This document shows positions 8,447-34,256 of a DNA stretch of 36,647 bases, in pieces. Every line of letters begins with the position of its first letter. The first letter of the stretch is position 1. Where the stretch lies: positions 6,511 through 43,157 of the forward strand of contig PAMC01000008.1 of NCBI GenBank assembly GCA_002710785.1, given 5' to 3'. The notes below the pieces were generated by a model. The model was given only the letters and a program-made list of their open reading frames with translations, was not told the origin of the DNA and ran no database searches. The DNA is from a bacterium (GTDB lineage: Bacteria; Patescibacteriota; Minisyncoccia; Phycocordibacterales; UBA918). The translations under genes and the position numbers were made by a program.

Positions 8447-8502
8447 AGAGAGCATTTATTAGTTCTTCTTCCATAATGAATCACGTTAATGATGAAGTAG
8501 TT

Positions 8503-8760
8503 ATGTATTACGTCTACGTTCTCCAGAGTGAGAAGAATGGACAATTATACATTGGCTCAACGAAAGACTTACGGAAACGTTTTAGTCAGCATAATCTTGG
8601 GCAGTCTACTTGGACTAAACGCAGTATTCCTTGGAAGTTGATTTATTATGAAGCGTGTTTAGTTGAAGCTGATGCTCGGGCTAGAGAGAAGTATTTCAAA
8701 TCTGGGCCAGGTAGACAGTCTTTAACAAAACGACTAAAACGTTTCCTATCATTAACGTGA
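8503..8760 (+). CDS. GIY-YIG domain nuclease (UPF0213/YhbQ-like)
   Basis: 85 aa from the ATG at 8503 (MYYVYVLQS), the usual start for this family; the track's ATG at 8476 would add nine residues. A single GIY-YIG domain: VYV (4-6) and YIG (16-18) strands, the catalytic Arg region DLRKRF (22-27), an EADARAREKYFKSG segment with a candidate metal-binding Glu62, and a basic C-terminal tail. Family members are small structure-specific or RNA/DNA nucleases of poorly known role. The stop overlaps the rplC start (GTGATG), so translation is probably coupled. The gene is AT-rich compared with flanking ribosomal genes (TTA, AGA, TAT codons), which suggests insertion into the S10 operon. Confidence 0.8.
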   Translation: MYYVYVLQSEKNGQLYIGSTKDLRKRFSQHNLGQSTWTKRSIPWKLIYYEACLVEADARAREKYFKSGPGRQSLTKRLKRFLSLT

Positions 8761-10638: not shown

Positions 10639-11487
10639 ATGAAGAAACTTAAACCAACTAGTCCCGGTCGTCGTAACATGACCGTGATCGAGTACAAGAA
10701 AAAACTTAGCTCGACGCAGAGTCGTCCACACAAAGCGCTCACCAAAGGCAAGCGCTCAACCGGTGGACGCAACAGCCAGGGCCGCATCACCACGTGGTAC
10801 CGCGGCGCAGGCAACAAGCGTAAGTATCGTGACATCGACTTCACGTACAACAAAAAGGACATCGAAGCCAAGATTGAGTCAATCGAGTACGATCCGTACC
10901 GCTCTGGCTTCATCGCGCTCGTCCTCTACAAAGACGGCGAACGTCGCTACGTGCTCGTCCCACAGGACATGCAAGTGGGCGACACCTTCGTAGTCTCAGA
11001 GAAGGCAAAGCCGCTCACCGGCAACCGCCTGCCGCTCGGCGCAATGCCAATTGGTACCTTCGTGTACAACATTGAATTGAAGCCGGGCGCCGGCGCTCGC
11101 ATCGCGCGCTCTGCTGGTAACTACGCCGAAGTCGTCGCGCACGACGCTGGCTACACCCAGCTGAAGATGCCGTCTACTGAGGTGCGTCGCATCATTTCTA
11201 CCGCCTGGGCATCAGTCGGCGAGGTCTCAAACGAAGAGCACCGTCTGGTAAACATCGGTAAAGCTGGTCGCGCCCGCCACATGGGCTTACGACCAAAGAC
11301 TCGCGGTAGCGCGCGTAACGCTGTCGACCACCCGTACGGTGGTGGTGAAGGCCGCTCACCGCGTGGCCACAAGCGCTCTCGCACCAAGCAGGGCCGACCC
11401 ACTGGTAAACGACAGAAGACCCGCAGCCCGAAGAAATACTCAAATAAATTCATTGTGAGTCGTCGTCGGGTAGGAAAACGACGTTAA
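10639..11487 (+). CDS. rplB: 50S ribosomal protein uL2
   Basis: 282 aa, normal length. It opens MKKLKPTSPGRRNMTV and has SKGRNSQGRITTWYRGAGNK-like RNA-binding strands (here STGGRNSQGRITTWYRGAGNKRKYRDIDF). The peptidyl-transferase-proximal motif is AVDHPYGGGEGRSPRGH, including the conserved His (residue about 232) next to GGGEG. L2 is required for subunit association and catalysis. It is the last gene of this half-operon. A 3.8-kb accessory island separates it from rpsS, which follows it directly in most bacteria. Confidence 0.97.
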   Translation: MKKLKPTSPGRRNMTVIEYKKKLSSTQSRPHKALTKGKRSTGGRNSQGRITTWYRGAGNKRKYRDIDFTYNKKDIEAKIESIEYDPYRSGFIALVLYKDGERRYVLVPQDMQVGDTFVVSEKAKPLTGNRLPLGAMPIGTFVYNIELKPGAGARIARSAGNYAEVVAHDAGYTQLKMPSTEVRRIISTAWASVGEVSNEEHRLVNIGKAGRARHMGLRPKTRGSARNAVDHPYGGGEGRSPRGHKRSRTKQGRPTGKRQKTRSPKKYSNKFIVSRRRVGKRR

Positions 11488-12549: not shown

Positions 12550-12920
12550 ATGATTACTTCAACCTTACGACGCACGAGCTACAGCCTGCTCATGGCAGCG
12601 CTGCTTTTGTAGTAACACTCGAAGCAGAAGATGGCGATCTTGAAGCACCAATGGAAGCGGCTGGAGAATATATTGCCACGAGCAAAGCCAAAAGAGGCTC
12701 TGCAACATACAGCGTAACTGTGCCGGAGGATGGCGTGTACACTGTACAGTTTAAAGTCTTCTCTGACACCAAGTCGCGCTCTCAGATTAAGTTTTCGGTC
12801 AACGATTCTAAACACGAAACGCTGCGTTTTTACGACAAGCATGAGCGCGAAGAGTCAGTCTGGAAAACCGGCAGTAAGGCTGAGTATGAAGTAGAGCTTG
12901 AAGCGGGTACACACACTTGA
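12550..12920 (+). pseudogene. N-terminal part of the pectate-lyase-like gene (signal peptide plus carbohydrate-binding-like domain), frame-disrupted
   Basis: ATG 12550 starts a signal-peptide-like MITSTLRRTSYSLLMAALLL that hits TAG at 12610. A shift of frame (for example one extra T in the CTTTTG run) would continue into VVTLEAEDGDLEAPMEAAGEYIATSKAKRGSATYSVTVPEDGVYTVQFKVF ... GTHT. This is a jelly-roll carbohydrate-binding-like domain matching the C-terminal domain of the following ORF (IEAESGVLTEPMERRDNYI ... GTHTLTLRG). The domain stops at TGA 12918-12920 within an (AC)4 tract; two more bases (AC)5 would restore GTHTLEIEGRDRD, the start of the next ORF. So one gene appears broken twice, both times in simple repeats. 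Confidence 0.65.
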
Positions 12921-14640
12921 AATTGAGGGGCGTGACCGCGACTTGCAGATCGACGCACTCCGTATCATGAGCGAAGACGTCACTGCGTCAGACGACGGAG
13001 GCTCGACTCCTGAAGTTGAGGAATCGTCAGAGCCTGAGTCTGAAACCAGCTCTACACCTGACCCGGTTGCACCCGCTCGTCCAACCACGGGCGACAATTA
13101 CGAGGCACTGCTCAATAATGTTGTTGGCTTTGCTCAGGGAGTAACTGGCGGTAAGGGCGGTGAGCTCTGTCGCGTTACTCGACTTTCAGACAGTGGCGAC
13201 GGTTCGCTGCGCGACTGTGCTACTAAAGGCAACACCTGGGTTGTGTTTGATGTGTCTGGAGAAATAGCGTTGCGTAGTCCGCTGCGTATTGCCAACGACA
13301 CAACTATCGATGGACGTGGCGCAGACATTACCATCACCAACCGTGGCCTTAGCACCGCTGGCCGTGAGAACATTGTCATTCACAATCTAAAAATCGACGA
13401 CATTAATGGTGACGGTATTGCAGTGTACGACGCCAAAGATATTTGGATCGACCACGTGAGCGTGAGCGACACGAGTGACGGCGCCATCGACATAACTAAG
13501 CAATCACGTAACGTGACGGTCTCGTGGTCGCACCTCACGAACCAAAATAAGACGATGCTCATTAGCGCAAATAACAGCCACACGGAAGATGAGATTATTA
13601 CCGTCACGCTGCACCATAACTGGTACGAGGGTACTATGCGTCGCAATCCGCTCATCCGTTTTGGCTCACTGCATATGTACAACAACGTGTTGAGTAACTG
13701 GGGTACCAGTGGCGGCGGTGATGGTGTGAACTCTGTCTATGGTGCACGTGTTCTTCTCGAGAACAACGTGTTTGAAGCTGGCGCCAACACCATGGCGGTG
13801 CGAACTACCGTACCAAACTACATGGAGGTACCTGGTTACATTAAGGCTCGTGGCAACTTGGCGCGTAACGGTGCACGAGTCTTTAGCGCTGAGCCAGAGC
13901 GGGTATTCGAGGCTTCGGACCTCTACGAGTACCGTCTGGCTGCTGCCAACAATAGTTTGGCGAGCGCCGTTAAGACCTACGCCGGCTGGCAACCAGCTAG
14001 CTTCTTCAGCTCGGGCCAATTTGCAGCAGAAGCGGGTGCACGTAATGCCGATGGCAACCACAGTGGTGTCCCTGCACCAGTGGTGAGTGAGCCTGCGGCG
14101 ACTCCTGAATCAGTAGTCAGTGAGCCAACGACAGAGCACGAGACGGCACCTACTGTGGTGTCGCAACCCCGCTCAGCGGTGACGCGTGATGCGTTCGTTA
14201 TTGAGGCCGAGTCAGGCGTACTTACCGAACCGATGGAGCGACGCGACAACTACATTTTTACTAATAAAGATGGAGAGGGAACCGCTACGTACTCGTTTGA
14301 GGTCACAGAAGCTGGTGAGTACCGGTTTGAAGTGAAAGCCCGCGCTCGTCGCACAAATGCCGACTCACTCTACATCTCGGTAAACCAGGAACCAGAGACC
14401 ACATTGCATATTTATGAGCGTGACGAACAGGGTGGTTTCTACTGGAAAGAGAACGACCCGTACGTGGTAAGGCTTGCTGCAGGTACGCACACACTCACCC
14501 TGCGTGGTCGCGAAGACGACACCTTCATCGACGCTGTACGGATCATGCCACTGCAGCGTGAACTGGGTTCGATGACACGAGAACAAATGCTTGAGCTAGT
14601 TCGCGAGTTAATCCGACGTATAGAGCAGCAAAGAAATTAG
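12898..14640 (+). CDS. Secreted pectate-lyase-like protein (polysaccharide lyase family 1 type), main ORF
   Basis: About 580 aa; the natural reading probably continues from 12550 through a frameshift near 12916, so the listed TTG start is likely artificial. Residues about 5-22 (LEIEGRDRDLQIDALRIM) complete an N-terminal carbohydrate-binding-like domain, then a Ser/Pro/Glu linker. The parallel beta-helix lyase domain has VTRLSDSGDGSLRD, WIDHVSVSDTSDGAIDIT, NVTVSWSHL and HHNWYEGTMRRNPLIRFGSLHMYNN; the RRNPLIR segment matches the catalytic/substrate Arg region of PL1 lyases. A second Pro/Glu-rich linker leads to a C-terminal copy of the binding domain (IEAESGVLTEP ... DTFIDAVRIMP) and a short helix (TREQMLELVRELIRRIEQQ). 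Probable substrate: pectin-like uronates (family inference). Confidence 0.75.
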   Translation: MKRVHTLEIEGRDRDLQIDALRIMSEDVTASDDGGSTPEVEESSEPESETSSTPDPVAPARPTTGDNYEALLNNVVGFAQGVTGGKGGELCRVTRLSDSGDGSLRDCATKGNTWVVFDVSGEIALRSPLRIANDTTIDGRGADITITNRGLSTAGRENIVIHNLKIDDINGDGIAVYDAKDIWIDHVSVSDTSDGAIDITKQSRNVTVSWSHLTNQNKTMLISANNSHTEDEIITVTLHHNWYEGTMRRNPLIRFGSLHMYNNVLSNWGTSGGGDGVNSVYGARVLLENNVFEAGANTMAVRTTVPNYMEVPGYIKARGNLARNGARVFSAEPERVFEASDLYEYRLAAANNSLASAVKTYAGWQPASFFSSGQFAAEAGARNADGNHSGVPAPVVSEPAATPESVVSEPTTEHETAPTVVSQPRSAVTRDAFVIEAESGVLTEPMERRDNYIFTNKDGEGTATYSFEVTEAGEYRFEVKARARRTNADSLYISVNQEPETTLHIYERDEQGGFYWKENDPYVVRLAAGTHTLTLRGREDDTFIDAVRIMPLQRELGSMTREQMLELVRELIRRIEQQRN

Positions 14641-15262: not shown

Positions 15263-15592
15263 ATGGCACGATCCCTATATAAAGGTCCCTACGTCGATCC
15301 GAAACTCCTCAAGAAAATCGATGGCAAAAAGCCAGCCGAAGCAGGAGTTATTAAGACGTGGGCACGCGATTCACTGATTTCACCAGAAATGGTGGGCTTT
15401 ACCTTTGGTGTTCACAACGGTAAAGATCACATCGAGGTCACTCCCACTGAGGAGATGGTCGGCCACCGACTCGGCGAATTTTCTCCAACCAAGAAGTTCT
15501 ACCGACACGGCGGTAAGATGCAGAAGGAGCTTGATCAGAAGAAGAAAGAAGCTGAAATTGCAGCTGCAAAGGCTGCTAAGGCTTCTGCGTAA
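15263..15592 (+). CDS. rpsS: 30S ribosomal protein uS19
   Basis: 109 aa. [20 protein letters not shown] ... [55 protein letters not shown] is the canonical S19 core, which binds the 16S head and contacts A-site tRNA. A charged Lys/Ala helix of about 20 residues ([25 protein letters not shown]) extends the C-terminus beyond the usual 92-95 residues. First gene of the operon driven by the 14978 promoter; its start lies directly behind a stable leader structure. Confidence 0.96.
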
Positions 15593-27121: not shown

Positions 27122-27718
27122 ATGAATCGACAACCACACCAAGAGCGCTCACTCGTGCTCCTCAAGACCGACGCGGTACAACGCAGTCTGGTTGGTGAGA
27201 TTATCAAACGCTTTGAGCAAAAAGGCCTCAAGATTGCTGGACTGAAAATGCTTATGCCAACCGAGGCGCAACTTCAGGATCACTACAACAAAGACGATGA
27301 GTGGTACACCCGTAAAGGCGAGGGTATTGTCGATGACCTTAAAGCGCAAGGCCGAGCAGTTGAAAAAGAACCAATTGAGTACGGGAAAGACATTATTCGC
27401 ACGATTGTGCGCTACATGACCGAGTCGCCAGTGGTAGCGATTGTGATCGAGGGCGTTGGCGCTGTCTCTGCTGTCACCCGAGCGGTTGGTACTACAGAGC
27501 CAGCTACTGCCGACATCGGCACCATCCGCGGTGACTACACAATAGACACCTTCTCTCACGCGACGCTTGAGACTCGGGCGGTAAAGAATCTTATTCACCA
27601 ATCTGAGTCTGTTGAGGAGGCTGAGCGCGAAATTGCAATTTGGTTTGCAGAAGATGAGATTCACGATTATGTGACGGCGCAAGAGCGCATTATGTACGAA
27701 GCGATTAAGAACACCTAA
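27122..27718 (+). CDS. ndk: Nucleoside diphosphate kinase
   Basis: 198 aa from the ATG at 27122 (MNRQPHQERSLVLLKTDAVQRSLVGEIIKRFEQKGLKIAGLKML). It transfers phosphate between NTPs and NDPs through a phospho-His. Core motifs: KTDAVQRSLVGEI, GVGAVSAVTRAVGTTEPATADIGTIRGDYTID and NLIHQSESVEEAEREIAIWF with the active-site His. It is longer than the usual 130-155 residues because of an insert after residue about 56 (YNKDDEWYTRKGEGIVDDLKAQGRAVEKEPIEYGKDI), a type of insert seen in some archaeal and CPR enzymes. It completes the local set of nucleotide kinases. Confidence 0.93.
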   Translation: MNRQPHQERSLVLLKTDAVQRSLVGEIIKRFEQKGLKIAGLKMLMPTEAQLQDHYNKDDEWYTRKGEGIVDDLKAQGRAVEKEPIEYGKDIIRTIVRYMTESPVVAIVIEGVGAVSAVTRAVGTTEPATADIGTIRGDYTIDTFSHATLETRAVKNLIHQSESVEEAEREIAIWFAEDEIHDYVTAQERIMYEAIKNT

Positions 27719-27837: not shown

Positions 27838-27880
27838 ACATGCAAAAGGCCGAGAGCGAAGCTCTCGGCCTTTTGCATGT
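27838..27880 (+). terminator. Intrinsic terminator after ndk
   Basis: ACATGCAAAAGGCCGAGAGC-GAA-GCTCTCGGCCTTTTGCATGT, a 20-bp perfect stem. Confidence 0.85.
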
Positions 27881-27939
27881 CCCAGTCGGGTCTTTTTTCT
27901 CATTCGTCGTGTATCTGACGCAAATGATTTATTTTTTGC
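27879..27939 (+). repeat. Truncated copy of the 3' half of element C
   Basis: GTCCCAGTCGGGTCTTTTTTCT is identical (22 nt) to 23972-23993. Similarity continues as TGTATCTGACGC versus TGTATCCGCAG and as a shared ATTTTTTGC. The 5' half of the element is missing here. Confidence 0.55.
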
Positions 27940-27965
27940 ACATATCGTGATGGGCGTGGTACGCT
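27936..27965 (+). promoter_or_regulatory. Promoter of the candidate 6S RNA
   Basis: TTGCAC (27936-27941), 18 nt, TACGCT (27960-27965); the predicted start lies at about 27972, the first base of the closing stem. Confidence 0.5.
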
Positions 27966-27970
27966 ACATC

Positions 27971-28124
27971 TGGAACCACATATACGTATGTTCCGCTTAA
28001 ACCTAATGTAAGGGCTGCCGACAGACGTGGTGCGTGATGAGACGCTTCTCGCGAAGCATTTCAGACACAAGCCAGTAACGGCGCCCACCTGGAGTTTCCC
28101 AGGAGCATACGGTTTGTGGTTCCA
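27971..28124 (+). ncRNA. ssrS: Candidate 6S RNA
   Basis: A noncoding stretch of about 154 nt between a promoter and a terminator folds end-to-end into one long interrupted rod. The closing stem is TGGAACCACA / TGTGGTTCCA, continued by CGTATGTTCC / GGAGCATACG (10 bp with one GU). Then comes a large central bubble (5' strand GCTTAAACCTAATGTAA; 3' strand carrying a small hairpin CCTGG-AGTTTC-CCAGG), followed by GGGCTGCCG / CGGCGCCC with one bulge and a terminal hairpin GCTTC-TCGC-GAAGC. Closing stem, open central bubble with a small 3'-strand hairpin, and terminal stem is the plan of 6S RNA, which mimics an open promoter to bind RNA polymerase. Identification is by architecture only. Another structured RNA is possible. 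Confidence 0.55.
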
Positions 28125-28157
28125 CGAAAAAATCCCACAGGAGTGGGATTTTTTCGT
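28121..28157 (+). terminator. Terminator of the candidate 6S RNA
   Basis: CACGAAAAAATCCCAC-AGGA-GTGGGATTTTTTCGTG, a perfect 16-bp stem with T6 in the 3' arm, directly after the closing stem. Confidence 0.85.
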
Positions 28158-28167
28158 GCTCTCAAGT

Positions 28168-28175
28168 GGTACTAT
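28168..28175 (+). promoter_or_regulatory. Extended -10 abutting the 28185 gene
   Basis: TGGTACTAT (hexamer 28170-28175), 9 nt, ATG at 28185. Confidence 0.45.
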
Positions 28176-28184
28176 ACAAGAGTA

Positions 28185-28568
28185 ATGTTGAAGCTCACGA
28201 CCGTCTTTTTCTTGCTTACCCTCGGCGTCTTGGCGGTTTTACATCGGTTGGCACTCGGATTCTACCTCTACTGGCGCTGGGAATGGTTCGATATTCTCAT
28301 GCACTTCTTCGGCGGCGCGGTAGCTGCACTTGGCCTCTTTACCATCCGTGACTTTTTGCATCGTATCCCCGAACGCTTTGAGTACGTCGTGCCGGTTATG
28401 TCTGGGGTTATTGTCACCACCCTCCTCTGGGATATTTTTGAGATTTTTGTGGTTGGCATACCGCTTGAGACACCTGGTCTGGCGCTCGATACCGGTATCG
28501 ACGTCGCCATGGGCACCATTGGTGGTTTTGTCGGGTTCTTAGTCGGTCATAGCTTGCGACGACTGTAG
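28185..28568 (+). CDS. Four-TM membrane protein, DUF2238-like pattern
   Basis: 127 aa from the ATG at 28185 (MLKLTTVFFLLTLGVLAVLH); the track's start at 28116 lies inside the upstream terminator. Four hydrophobic helices. Polar residues sit in the membrane segments WFDILMHFFGGAVAALG, VTTLLWDIFEIFVVGIPLETPG and LDTGIDVAMGTIGGFVGFLVGH. The spaced FDxxMHFxGG ... WDxFE ... DTxxDxxxGxxGG pattern resembles the DUF2238/VanZ-like group of small membrane proteins, function unknown. Its stop is 2 nt before the beta-CASP nuclease gene, so the two are co-transcribed. Confidence 0.65.
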   Translation: MLKLTTVFFLLTLGVLAVLHRLALGFYLYWRWEWFDILMHFFGGAVAALGLFTIRDFLHRIPERFEYVVPVMSGVIVTTLLWDIFEIFVVGIPLETPGLALDTGIDVAMGTIGGFVGFLVGHSLRRL

Positions 28569-28570
28569 GT

Positions 28571-29929
28571 ATGGCAACACTCGGATTTTATGGCGGCGTG
28601 GGCAGCGTCACGGGAGCAAACTTTATGCTCGATACTGGCAAGCTCGCCGTATTGATTGATTGCGGTCTGGTGCAGGGCGATAAGTTCGCCAAGCAGCAAA
28701 ACGCCGAACCATTTACGTACAACCCAGCTGACATCGATGTGTTGTTAGTTACCCACGCGCACGCGGATCACATCGGCCGTATCCCAAAGCTAGTGCGTGA
28801 TGGTTTTGTCGGCAAAATCTACTCGACAGCACCAACGCGTGAATTAGCCGCGATCATGCTCGACGATGCCGTCGGGATTATGGAGATGGAGGCCCGACGT
28901 GATGGCACTACGCCAATTTACAACGAAGCAGACATCGATACCGCCCTTGGTTTGTGGCAGGGTGTGGGGTATCACGAGCCAGTCGACATTGGCGACGGTA
29001 TTACCGCCACGTTTACCGACGCCGGACACATTCTTGGTTCAGCGATGGTACAGATTGAGCGCAATGGCAAAAAACTAGTGTGTACTGGCGATGTTGGCAA
29101 CGACCCGCAGCCGCTACTCTCGCCACCAGAGGTACCCAAAGACTATGACTACCTCATTATGGAGAGTGTCTACGGCGACCGCACCCACGAGGAGGTTGCG
29201 GAGCGCACAGCCCTCTTGCAGCAACATATTGAGCACACCATTGCAGTTAAGGGTACGTTGATTATTCCGGCCTTCAGTCTTGAGCGTACGCAGGCCATGC
29301 TGTTTGAGATTAACAACTTGGTAGAACAGGAGATTATTCCGCCGATTAAAACCTTTCTCGATTCGCCATTGGCGATTCGCGTCACCGATGTCTACCGCCA
29401 CTCACTCGAGTACCTCAAACCAGCGGTACAAGAGCAGATTAACGAAGGCGACGATATTTTTGCCTTTGAAGGCCTCTCGTTTACCGAGTCGGTTAAGGAG
29501 TCGCGTGAGATTGCTCGCTTTGGTGGGCCAAAAATTATTATCGCTGGCTCGGGCATGAGCCACGGTGGGCGGATCCGTACGCATGAGAAGCAATTTCTTG
29601 GCGAAACTACCACTACGGTGCTCTTGGTGGGCTACCAAACGGTTGGTAGCGTCGGTCGCTTGCTCCAAGATGGCGCTAAACATGTCACCATCGATGGTGA
29701 TGATGTTCGCGTTAAAGCCAAGATCGCCCGTATCCGCGGGTACTCAGGTCACGCCGACCGCGACCAGCTCTTAAATCTCGTCTACCGCAGCGACGCCAAC
29801 CCTAAGCAGATCTTTGTCACTATGGGGGAGGAGAAATCGTCGCTCCACTTAGTACAACGCTTACGCGACTACCTTGGTATGCCCGCCATGGCACCGGCCG
29901 AAAATCAAGAAATCGAGATCGATTTCTGA
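28571..29929 (+). CDS. Metallo-beta-lactamase/beta-CASP ribonuclease
   Basis: 452 aa. Metallo-beta-lactamase motifs: motif 2 THAHADH (61-67), motif 3 DAGHILGSA (150-158), motif 4 TGDVGN (172-177). The beta-CASP part has ESVYGDR (about 199), PAFSLERTQ, a GGRIRTHEKQFL segment after the GSGMSHGG motif, and a C-terminal SGHADRDQL. This is the CPSF73/YSH1-like bacterial group, zinc-dependent endo/5'-exoribonucleases acting in RNA processing or decay, distinct from classical RNase J in lacking the long C-terminal domain. The exact substrate is unknown. GGTATG start context, 2 nt after the membrane-protein gene. Confidence 0.9.
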   Translation: MATLGFYGGVGSVTGANFMLDTGKLAVLIDCGLVQGDKFAKQQNAEPFTYNPADIDVLLVTHAHADHIGRIPKLVRDGFVGKIYSTAPTRELAAIMLDDAVGIMEMEARRDGTTPIYNEADIDTALGLWQGVGYHEPVDIGDGITATFTDAGHILGSAMVQIERNGKKLVCTGDVGNDPQPLLSPPEVPKDYDYLIMESVYGDRTHEEVAERTALLQQHIEHTIAVKGTLIIPAFSLERTQAMLFEINNLVEQEIIPPIKTFLDSPLAIRVTDVYRHSLEYLKPAVQEQINEGDDIFAFEGLSFTESVKESREIARFGGPKIIIAGSGMSHGGRIRTHEKQFLGETTTTVLLVGYQTVGSVGRLLQDGAKHVTIDGDDVRVKAKIARIRGYSGHADRDQLLNLVYRSDANPKQIFVTMGEEKSSLHLVQRLRDYLGMPAMAPAENQEIEIDF

Positions 29930-33244: not shown

Positions 33245-33850
33245 ATGGCCGGTGGAGCAGCGACCAAAACGGTAAAGAAAAAAGTGGTACGCAAAAAAGT
33301 TGCGAAAAAGACCACCAAAAAATCGACTAAAAAGACCACCAAGCGCGTTACTAAACGGGTGGTAAAGAAAGTGGCCAAAAAGACTGCTAAAAAAGTGGTG
33401 CGTAAAAAAGTAATTAAAAAGGTACTCAAGCGACGGGTGGTAAAACAGCCTGGACGCAAAGCACCAACCAACTTGCCATTCCGCCAGCGCCTCAATAAAA
33501 AACGACTGGGTATTGTGGGCGGTGTGCTCGCGGTAGTGTGCGGGAGCGCAGCCTACATTGGCATCACCGGTGATGGGGGTCAAATTAACGTTATGGAAGT
33601 ACTGGCTGAGCAGGGTGTTACACCACAGCAAGCTGCGGTACCAGCCAGCACCACACCGGTAGCGGAGCCGGTTACCGAAACGAGCACGAGCAGTGCCACG
33701 TCAACCGAAGATGGTAGCGCAACCAGCACTGAGTCGGTCGCCACCAGTACACCGGCTACCGCAGGTGCAACCTCCACACCCGATACAGCAACCACTACTG
33801 AGCCAGCTGCAGTGAGCGATCCGCAGACTAACACCGCTACGTCGACGTAG
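33245..33850 (+). CDS. Membrane-anchored lysine-repeat (histone-H1-like) protein
   Basis: 201 aa from the ATG at 33245 (MAGGAATKTV), chosen because an extended -10 box ends 9 nt upstream; the track's start lies before that promoter. Residues 7-72 are Lys/Arg/Val/Thr repeats of the form TKKxxKKVxKK, as in the DNA-binding tails of histone H1, AlgP and HctB-like proteins. One transmembrane helix follows (about 89-107, GIVGGVLAVVCGSAAYIGI) and a Thr/Ser/Ala/Pro-rich tail of about 90 residues (TETSTSSATSTEDGSATSTES). The positive-inside rule places the basic domain in the cytoplasm and the tail outside. A role in tethering nucleic acid to the membrane is inferred. The 3' end overlaps the convergent SET gene by 14 nt. 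Confidence 0.7.
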   Translation: MAGGAATKTVKKKVVRKKVAKKTTKKSTKKTTKRVTKRVVKKVAKKTAKKVVRKKVIKKVLKRRVVKQPGRKAPTNLPFRQRLNKKRLGIVGGVLAVVCGSAAYIGITGDGGQINVMEVLAEQGVTPQQAAVPASTTPVAEPVTETSTSSATSTEDGSATSTESVATSTPATAGATSTPDTATTTEPAAVSDPQTNTATST

Positions 33851-34256
33851 CCGCTTTACACGCAGGACACCGACAGCCGCCGTCGGGAATTAAGATGTCC
33901 TTCATATACTCCTCACCGTAGTTAATGGTGATCTCCTCACCCGGGCGAATTTTGCGCAGCGCACGAATGTACACCCGGTCTTCGGTCACCTCATGCTCTG
34001 CTTCGGCATTTGGCTTGCAGGCGTGGTTAATGTAGCGGGCGGTGTGACTCGGGTGCGAGCCATCGATAACCAGGTCTTTTTTAACCTCAAAGAGGTAGCG
34101 ACCCCCGCGACGCTCACTCTCAGCGTCGTCAACGCGTTCGCCGGTGTACTCAATAATCAGCTGCCCTTTGGGAATGCTCTCAGCAGCAAAGAGGCCTTCT
34201 CCCTCGATGCCGCTGCCAATTTCGACAGCTGGTCGGTAGTTGTCGTTTAGTGACAT
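33837..34256 (-). CDS. SET-domain protein-lysine methyltransferase
   Basis: 139 aa, a minimal SET domain. IEGEGLFAAESIPKGQLIIEYTGE (17-40) is the SET-N strand region, ARYINHACKPNAE (73-85) carries the NHxxxPN SAM/catalytic motif, and GEEITINYGEEY (106-117) has the conserved Tyr. A C-terminal CRCPAC (128-133) resembles a post-SET zinc cluster. It transfers methyl from SAM to protein lysine; the substrate is unknown. It is convergent and 14-nt overlapping with the lysine-repeat protein gene, an obvious candidate substrate. On the minus strand TATACT lies 7 nt before the ATG, so it is probably leaderless. Confidence 0.88.
   Translation of the reverse strand: MSLNDNYRPAVEIGSGIEGEGLFAAESIPKGQLIIEYTGERVDDAESERRGGRYLFEVKKDLVIDGSHPSHTARYINHACKPNAEAEHEVTEDRVYIRALRKIRPGEEITINYGEEYMKDILIPDGGCRCPACKAATST

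Follow-up and report, generated by a model that had tools for sequence, protein, structure and literature searches.

6S RNA blocks the sigma-A/sigma-70 holoenzyme and serves the polymerase as a template for product RNAs (PMC8876501). These start in the 5' bubble, at U44 in E. coli and C40 in B. subtilis, and their synthesis unwinds the stem P2 and frees the polymerase, which in E. coli is aided by a hairpin in the 3' bubble (PMC8876501). The E. coli hairpin forms only during product-RNA synthesis; in B. subtilis 6S-1 the free RNA already carries a short 3' bubble hairpin of 5 bp (up to 7) (PMC8876501). Ms1 of Actinobacteria is ~300 nt long, has extra hairpins at both ends, and associates with core polymerase that lacks the primary sigma factor (PMC9130861). 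The earlier note had remarked that 6S genes of the candidate phyla radiation (CPR) are poorly documented. A literature search returned no paper that connects CPR, Patescibacteria (one irrelevant match) or Saccharibacteria to 6S RNA, although subscription journals were thinly covered and the evidence is weak.

Here we describe an RNA encoded in a 36,647-nt stretch of DNA (the window), which is very probably the 6S RNA, in divergent form, of a tiny uncultured CPR bacterium. The host genome (G000) comprises 822 kb in 19 contigs.

The locus and its distribution

The RNA lies in the gap between the end of ndk at 27718 and the start of a small membrane-protein gene at about 28185. Its body, at 27970-28123 (+), is 154 nt long and noncoding.

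27122-27718 (+): ndk, nucleoside diphosphate kinase (Pfam PF00334); upstream neighbour, conserved by synteny
27936-27965 (+): candidate promoter, with -35 TTGCAC at 27936-27941, an 18-nt spacer and a TG-extended -10 TACGCT at 27960-27965
27970-28123 (+): RNA body, ~154 nt, or ~188 nt including the terminator if unprocessed; placed by genus homologues, covariation and the coincidence of R2 with RF00013 (below)
28124-28157 (+): intrinsic terminator, ACGAAAAAATCCCA-CAGGAG-TGGGATTTTTTCGT, a perfect 14-bp stem and then a T-run
about 28185-28568 (+): small membrane-like protein gene without a Pfam match
28571-29929 (+): metallo-beta-lactamase/beta-CASP RNase gene (Pfam PF10996, PF07521); downstream neighbour, conserved by synteny

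The earlier note had described a noncoding region running from a promoter to a perfect terminator. The 154 noncoding nucleotides and the perfect 14-bp terminator stand, but the promoter had been rated generously: its -10 box matches the consensus at 3 of 6 positions, it is the weakest part of the locus in the window species, and a consensus promoter scan does not list it. In most relatives a TATAAT-like box occupies the equivalent position, ~4-6 nt upstream of the RNA. Boxes with at least 5 of 6 matches are present at 13 of 23 same-genus loci, where shuffling predicts 3.0, and at 19 of 22 order-level loci, where it predicts 3.5; a terminator follows the RNA directly at 22/23 and 19/22 of these loci, respectively. 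On this sequence evidence the RNA is a candidate independent transcript, with a putative promoter of its own and a predicted 3' end.

BLAST searches with this stretch of the window revealed relatives of ~70% identity across the genus, and contigs of the same genus carry the names Candidatus Kaiserbacteria, Elulimicrobium or Patescibacteria, which supports the CPR origin that had been proposed. A covariance model built from 24 same-genus sequences (R1) detects the RNA in 35 of 38 same-genus genomes and also matches order-level members, with a single copy in each. A second model (R2), for which 42 sequences of the genus and the order were used and the loci fetched by RF00013 (the 6S/SsrS family of Rfam) were left out, detects one copy each in 105 of 148 order genomes, representing 84 of 118 genera, and in whole-genome searches matches 43 of 287 phylum genomes. 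The gene order is also conserved. At almost every genus locus the RNA lies just 3' of ndk, and in most order loci it is flanked by ndk and the beta-CASP RNase gene, while the small membrane-like gene comes next after the RNA, directly before the RNase gene, in most genus loci. Within 1.5 kb of each of the 25 order-level loci L032-L056 lies at least one of map, ndk and the beta-CASP RNase gene, and this synteny provides independent support because the covariance model knows the RNA only.

Two other readings of the locus were rejected. R1 scores ~19-36 bits on the antisense of its own members, so scores of ~20 bits are weak on their own; across the genus genomes the antisense scores of 26-36 bits stand against 90-151 bits sense. 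The antisense reading fails because the promoter, the terminator and the RF00013 orientation all agree on the sense strand, which is + in the window. Protein coding is contradicted by the genus alignment, in which indels break the frame; of the overlapping frames, the one at 27900-28088 (-) and the one that extends 28116-28568 upstream are open for mechanical reasons only.

Several further features of the window were observed. A long perfect hairpin, GACATGCAAAAGGCCGAGAGC...GCTCTCGGCCTTTTGCATGTC, at 27838-27885 after ndk is probably a terminator that keeps the RNA gene apart from ndk. A pectate lyase-like beta-helix gene (12898-14640, +, PF00544), unusual for such an operon, sits inside the ribosomal-protein cluster, flanked by apparent rplB (10639-11487) and rpsS (15263-15592), and the same cluster holds a GIY-YIG nuclease ORF (8476-8760, +, PF01541) between apparent rpsJ and rplC. 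This CPR genome also encodes a SET-domain protein of 139 aa (33837-34256, -, PF00856).

Fold, covariation and comparison with known 6S-type RNAs

The window RNA folds with an energy of -71.0 kcal/mol, compared with -43.1 +/- 4.1 kcal/mol for dinucleotide shuffles (z = -6.9). Both this fold and the covariation-backed consensus give a closing stem, a central bubble with a hairpin in its 3' strand, and a terminal stem, comprised of the following elements.

27972-27979 (+): P1 closing stem, 5' strand, GGAACCAC; 8 bp with 28116-28123, 98.4% of cells paired, two-sided changes in 6 of 8 pairs
27985-27993 (+): P2 closing stem, 5' strand, CGTATGTTC; 9 bp with 28103-28111, 99.5% of cells paired
27994-28011 (+): central bubble, 5' strand, CGCTTAAACCTAATGTAA; family consensus CGATTAAA..., unpaired in the consensus structure
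28012-28086 (+): terminal arm; base GGGC:GCCC (28012-28015/28083-28086), apical hairpin TGAGA...TTTCA, covarying helices 3-6
28087-28102 (+): central bubble, 3' strand; ACCT with a small hairpin CTGG...CCAG (28089-28092/28099-28102)
28103-28111 (+): P2 closing stem, 3' strand, GAGCATACG; covariation
28116-28123 (+): P1 closing stem, 3' strand, GTGGTTCC; covariation

Across the 24 same-genus sequences 94.7% of cells are paired and two-sided changes occur in 26 of 46 pairs. None of 500 shuffles was as good, and when the partner was slid by 1-3 columns the paired fraction was 31-46%. This is a conserved RNA rather than a chance fold, and the 6S-like fold plan put forward in the earlier note is borne out by the fold energy and the two-sided pairs. 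The 3' bubble hairpin (helix 7) is paired in 90% of cells, with two-sided changes present, and the T at 27998 is invariant across the genus alignment. In the order-level loci L038, L040 and L041 a long hairpin extends the terminal arm, giving an RNA of ~176-178 nt compared with 110-130 nt in the shortest members; from this spread in length, the apical arm is highly variable.

When the RNA is compared with the RF00013 6S/SsrS family, it shares the closing stem, the central bubble with a 3'-strand hairpin, and a terminal stem based on GGG:CCC and followed by ACCU. It differs in its short closing arm (8 + 9 bp), from which the RF00013 outer arm with the GUUCG...CGGCA consensus is missing, in its length of ~154 nt against 187 model positions, and in a terminal arm that varies among relatives. 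With B. subtilis 6S-1 it has in common a preformed 3' bubble hairpin, predicted at ~4-5 bp here, whereas the sequence appears to differ and so does the product-RNA start, C40 there and an expected U here. E. coli ssrS likewise starts its product RNA at a U, U44, in the 5' bubble, where by eye CCGAU resembles the family consensus CCGAUU; in contrast, R2 does not match ssrS, and the 3' hairpin that depends on synthesis in E. coli is predicted to be preformed here. Ms1 also has a central bubble and a 6S-related shape; unlike the 154-nt window RNA, which runs from promoter to terminator, it is ~300 nt with its additional end hairpins.

Homology to 6S RNA through relatives

The earlier note had proposed running RF00013 on the RNA. 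This search gives no match in the window, either at gathering thresholds or in a permissive local search, and none in the bacterium's own genome at E<=10; in a direct Rfam search of the window the terminator hairpin alone is matched, by chance. Taken literally, the proposed check would have thrown out the 6S idea. The RF00013 cut-off, however, is a rule for database searches and not a feature of the biology, and the model probably fails here because the compact P1-P2 arm lacks the RF00013 outer arm. A better match to another RNA class, which the earlier note had named as a result that would count against 6S, was not found either: when 12 genus loci were searched against Rfam, no family scored close to its threshold along the RNA, and the other Rfam searches over the RNA brought no rival family near its cut-off. 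RF00013 itself matches 22 of 287 phylum genomes, 3 of them above the Rfam cut-off, and 3 of 148 order genomes, none above it.

Since RF00013 misses the window RNA, the homology link was made via relatives. R1 matches 7 of the 20 phylum loci found by RF00013, all at the same place and on the same strand and none elsewhere in 61 kb, and R2 matches 16 of the 20. Wherever a phylum genome is matched by both R2 and RF00013, their single matches coincide in place and strand (13/13: G192, G197, G218, G221, G228, G230, G267, G271, G327, G364, G394, G408 and G443), and the three RF00013 matches in order genomes all fall on R2 matches (G071, G082 and G156). One order member, L043, aligns end to end with RF00013 at 26 bits.

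The genus, order and RF00013-found CPR loci were combined in an alignment of 27 sequences fitted to the R2 structure. The core GGG...CCC-ACCU plus hairpin is present in 27/27 sequences and also in the RF00013 consensus, so that CCgAaaauuuuuauaauaGGG...CCCACCUgga of the latter lines up with UCcGauUAAAuaUuuuuucAGGG...CCCACCUggaa of the family; neither the C:G pair that closes the 3' hairpin nor the GGG:CCC at the foot of the terminal arm varies. Two-sided changes occur in 40 of 46 pairs, a count that is inflated by, and leans in favour because of, the fitting to the structure. Separately, the 3'-side pattern GCCCACCT-N5-18-AGGAGCATACG occurs once each in unrelated taxa such as Akkermansiaceae, Roseibacillus and Bacteroidales (loci L116, L121, L131, L119, L122, L124, L127 and others), as a pattern match only.

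R2 gives no match to E. coli ssrS at E<=10, and RF00013 is therefore the sole bridge to the best-studied 6S RNA. The 6S interpretation of the earlier note is supported by the coincidence of R1 and R2 with RF00013 in relatives and by the shared core. The window RNA is a conserved, covarying RNA with homologues among the CPR RNAs that are classed as 6S by Rfam. On this evidence it shares common descent with 6S RNA, and divergent 6S RNA homologue is the best name for it.

The RNA could alternatively descend from 6S RNA and bind polymerase, yet act in another way by now, for instance on core polymerase as Ms1 does. The replacement of the RF00013 outer closing arm by a shorter two-part stem would fit such a change, and Ms1 is a precedent for a 6S-like RNA that binds another form of polymerase (PMC9130861); we nevertheless consider this improbable, as the bubble core GGG...CCC-ACCU-hairpin, common to the CPR 6S RNAs recognised by RF00013, is kept, and Ms1 is a ~300-nt RNA with extra end hairpins (PMC9130861). 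Convergence on a 6S-like shape by a structured RNA of another class, either a trans-acting small RNA or an ndk 3' UTR, might be read from the direct failure of RF00013 and from its near-constant position just 3' of ndk within the genus, but is very hard to reconcile with independent models that coincide in 16/16 genomes, a -10 box position and terminator of the RNA's own, a separate hairpin terminator after ndk (~27838-27885), and the lack of any other Rfam family scoring close to its threshold along the RNA. We are thus left highly confident that 27970-28123 is the single-copy 6S RNA of a CPR bacterium of the Kaiserbacteria lineage, representing a divergent branch of the RF00013 superfamily.

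Proposed mechanism and significance

By analogy with known 6S biology, the closing stem and central bubble of this RNA would fill the active-site cleft of the primary-sigma holoenzyme in imitation of an open promoter, and capture of the holoenzyme would repress housekeeping transcription as growth slows. A primary-sigma target is available, since sigma-70 region 2 is matched six times in the genome, most strongly within a frame of 461 aa. Once nucleotides return, the polymerase may start at U27997 or U27998, as judged by position, and copy back through P2, the 5' strand of which (27985-27993) is the expected product-RNA template. The predicted product RNA is approximately 5'-A(A)GCGGAACAUACG, with predicted 5' ends 5'-AGCGGAACAUACG or 5'-AAGCGGAACAUACG, the complement of 27985-27998. 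The GG at 28102-28103 can pair with either P2 or the 3' hairpin, and opening of P2 would therefore strengthen the hairpin, which may then claim the shared GG and release the polymerase. Rather more speculatively, the CPR branch might be a compact 6S RNA with rules of its own, in which a short closing stem and two G residues shared by P2 and a preformed 3' hairpin let very short product RNAs release the polymerase, and which would be a major global regulator of transcription in very small genomes with host-dependent growth; we hold this to be possible but rather unlikely.

Among the sampled genomes the Rfam counts, with 0 of 148 order genomes and 3 of 287 phylum genomes above the cut-off, invite the conclusion that 6S RNA has been lost from CPR on a large scale. 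The window-seeded model reveals a widespread, overlooked CPR branch of 6S RNA, and the gene order ndk, 6S RNA, beta-CASP RNase provides a simple handle for its annotation and testing. Given that one copy is recovered in 105 of the 148 order genomes, global control of the polymerase by 6S RNA appears to have been retained through extreme genome reduction.
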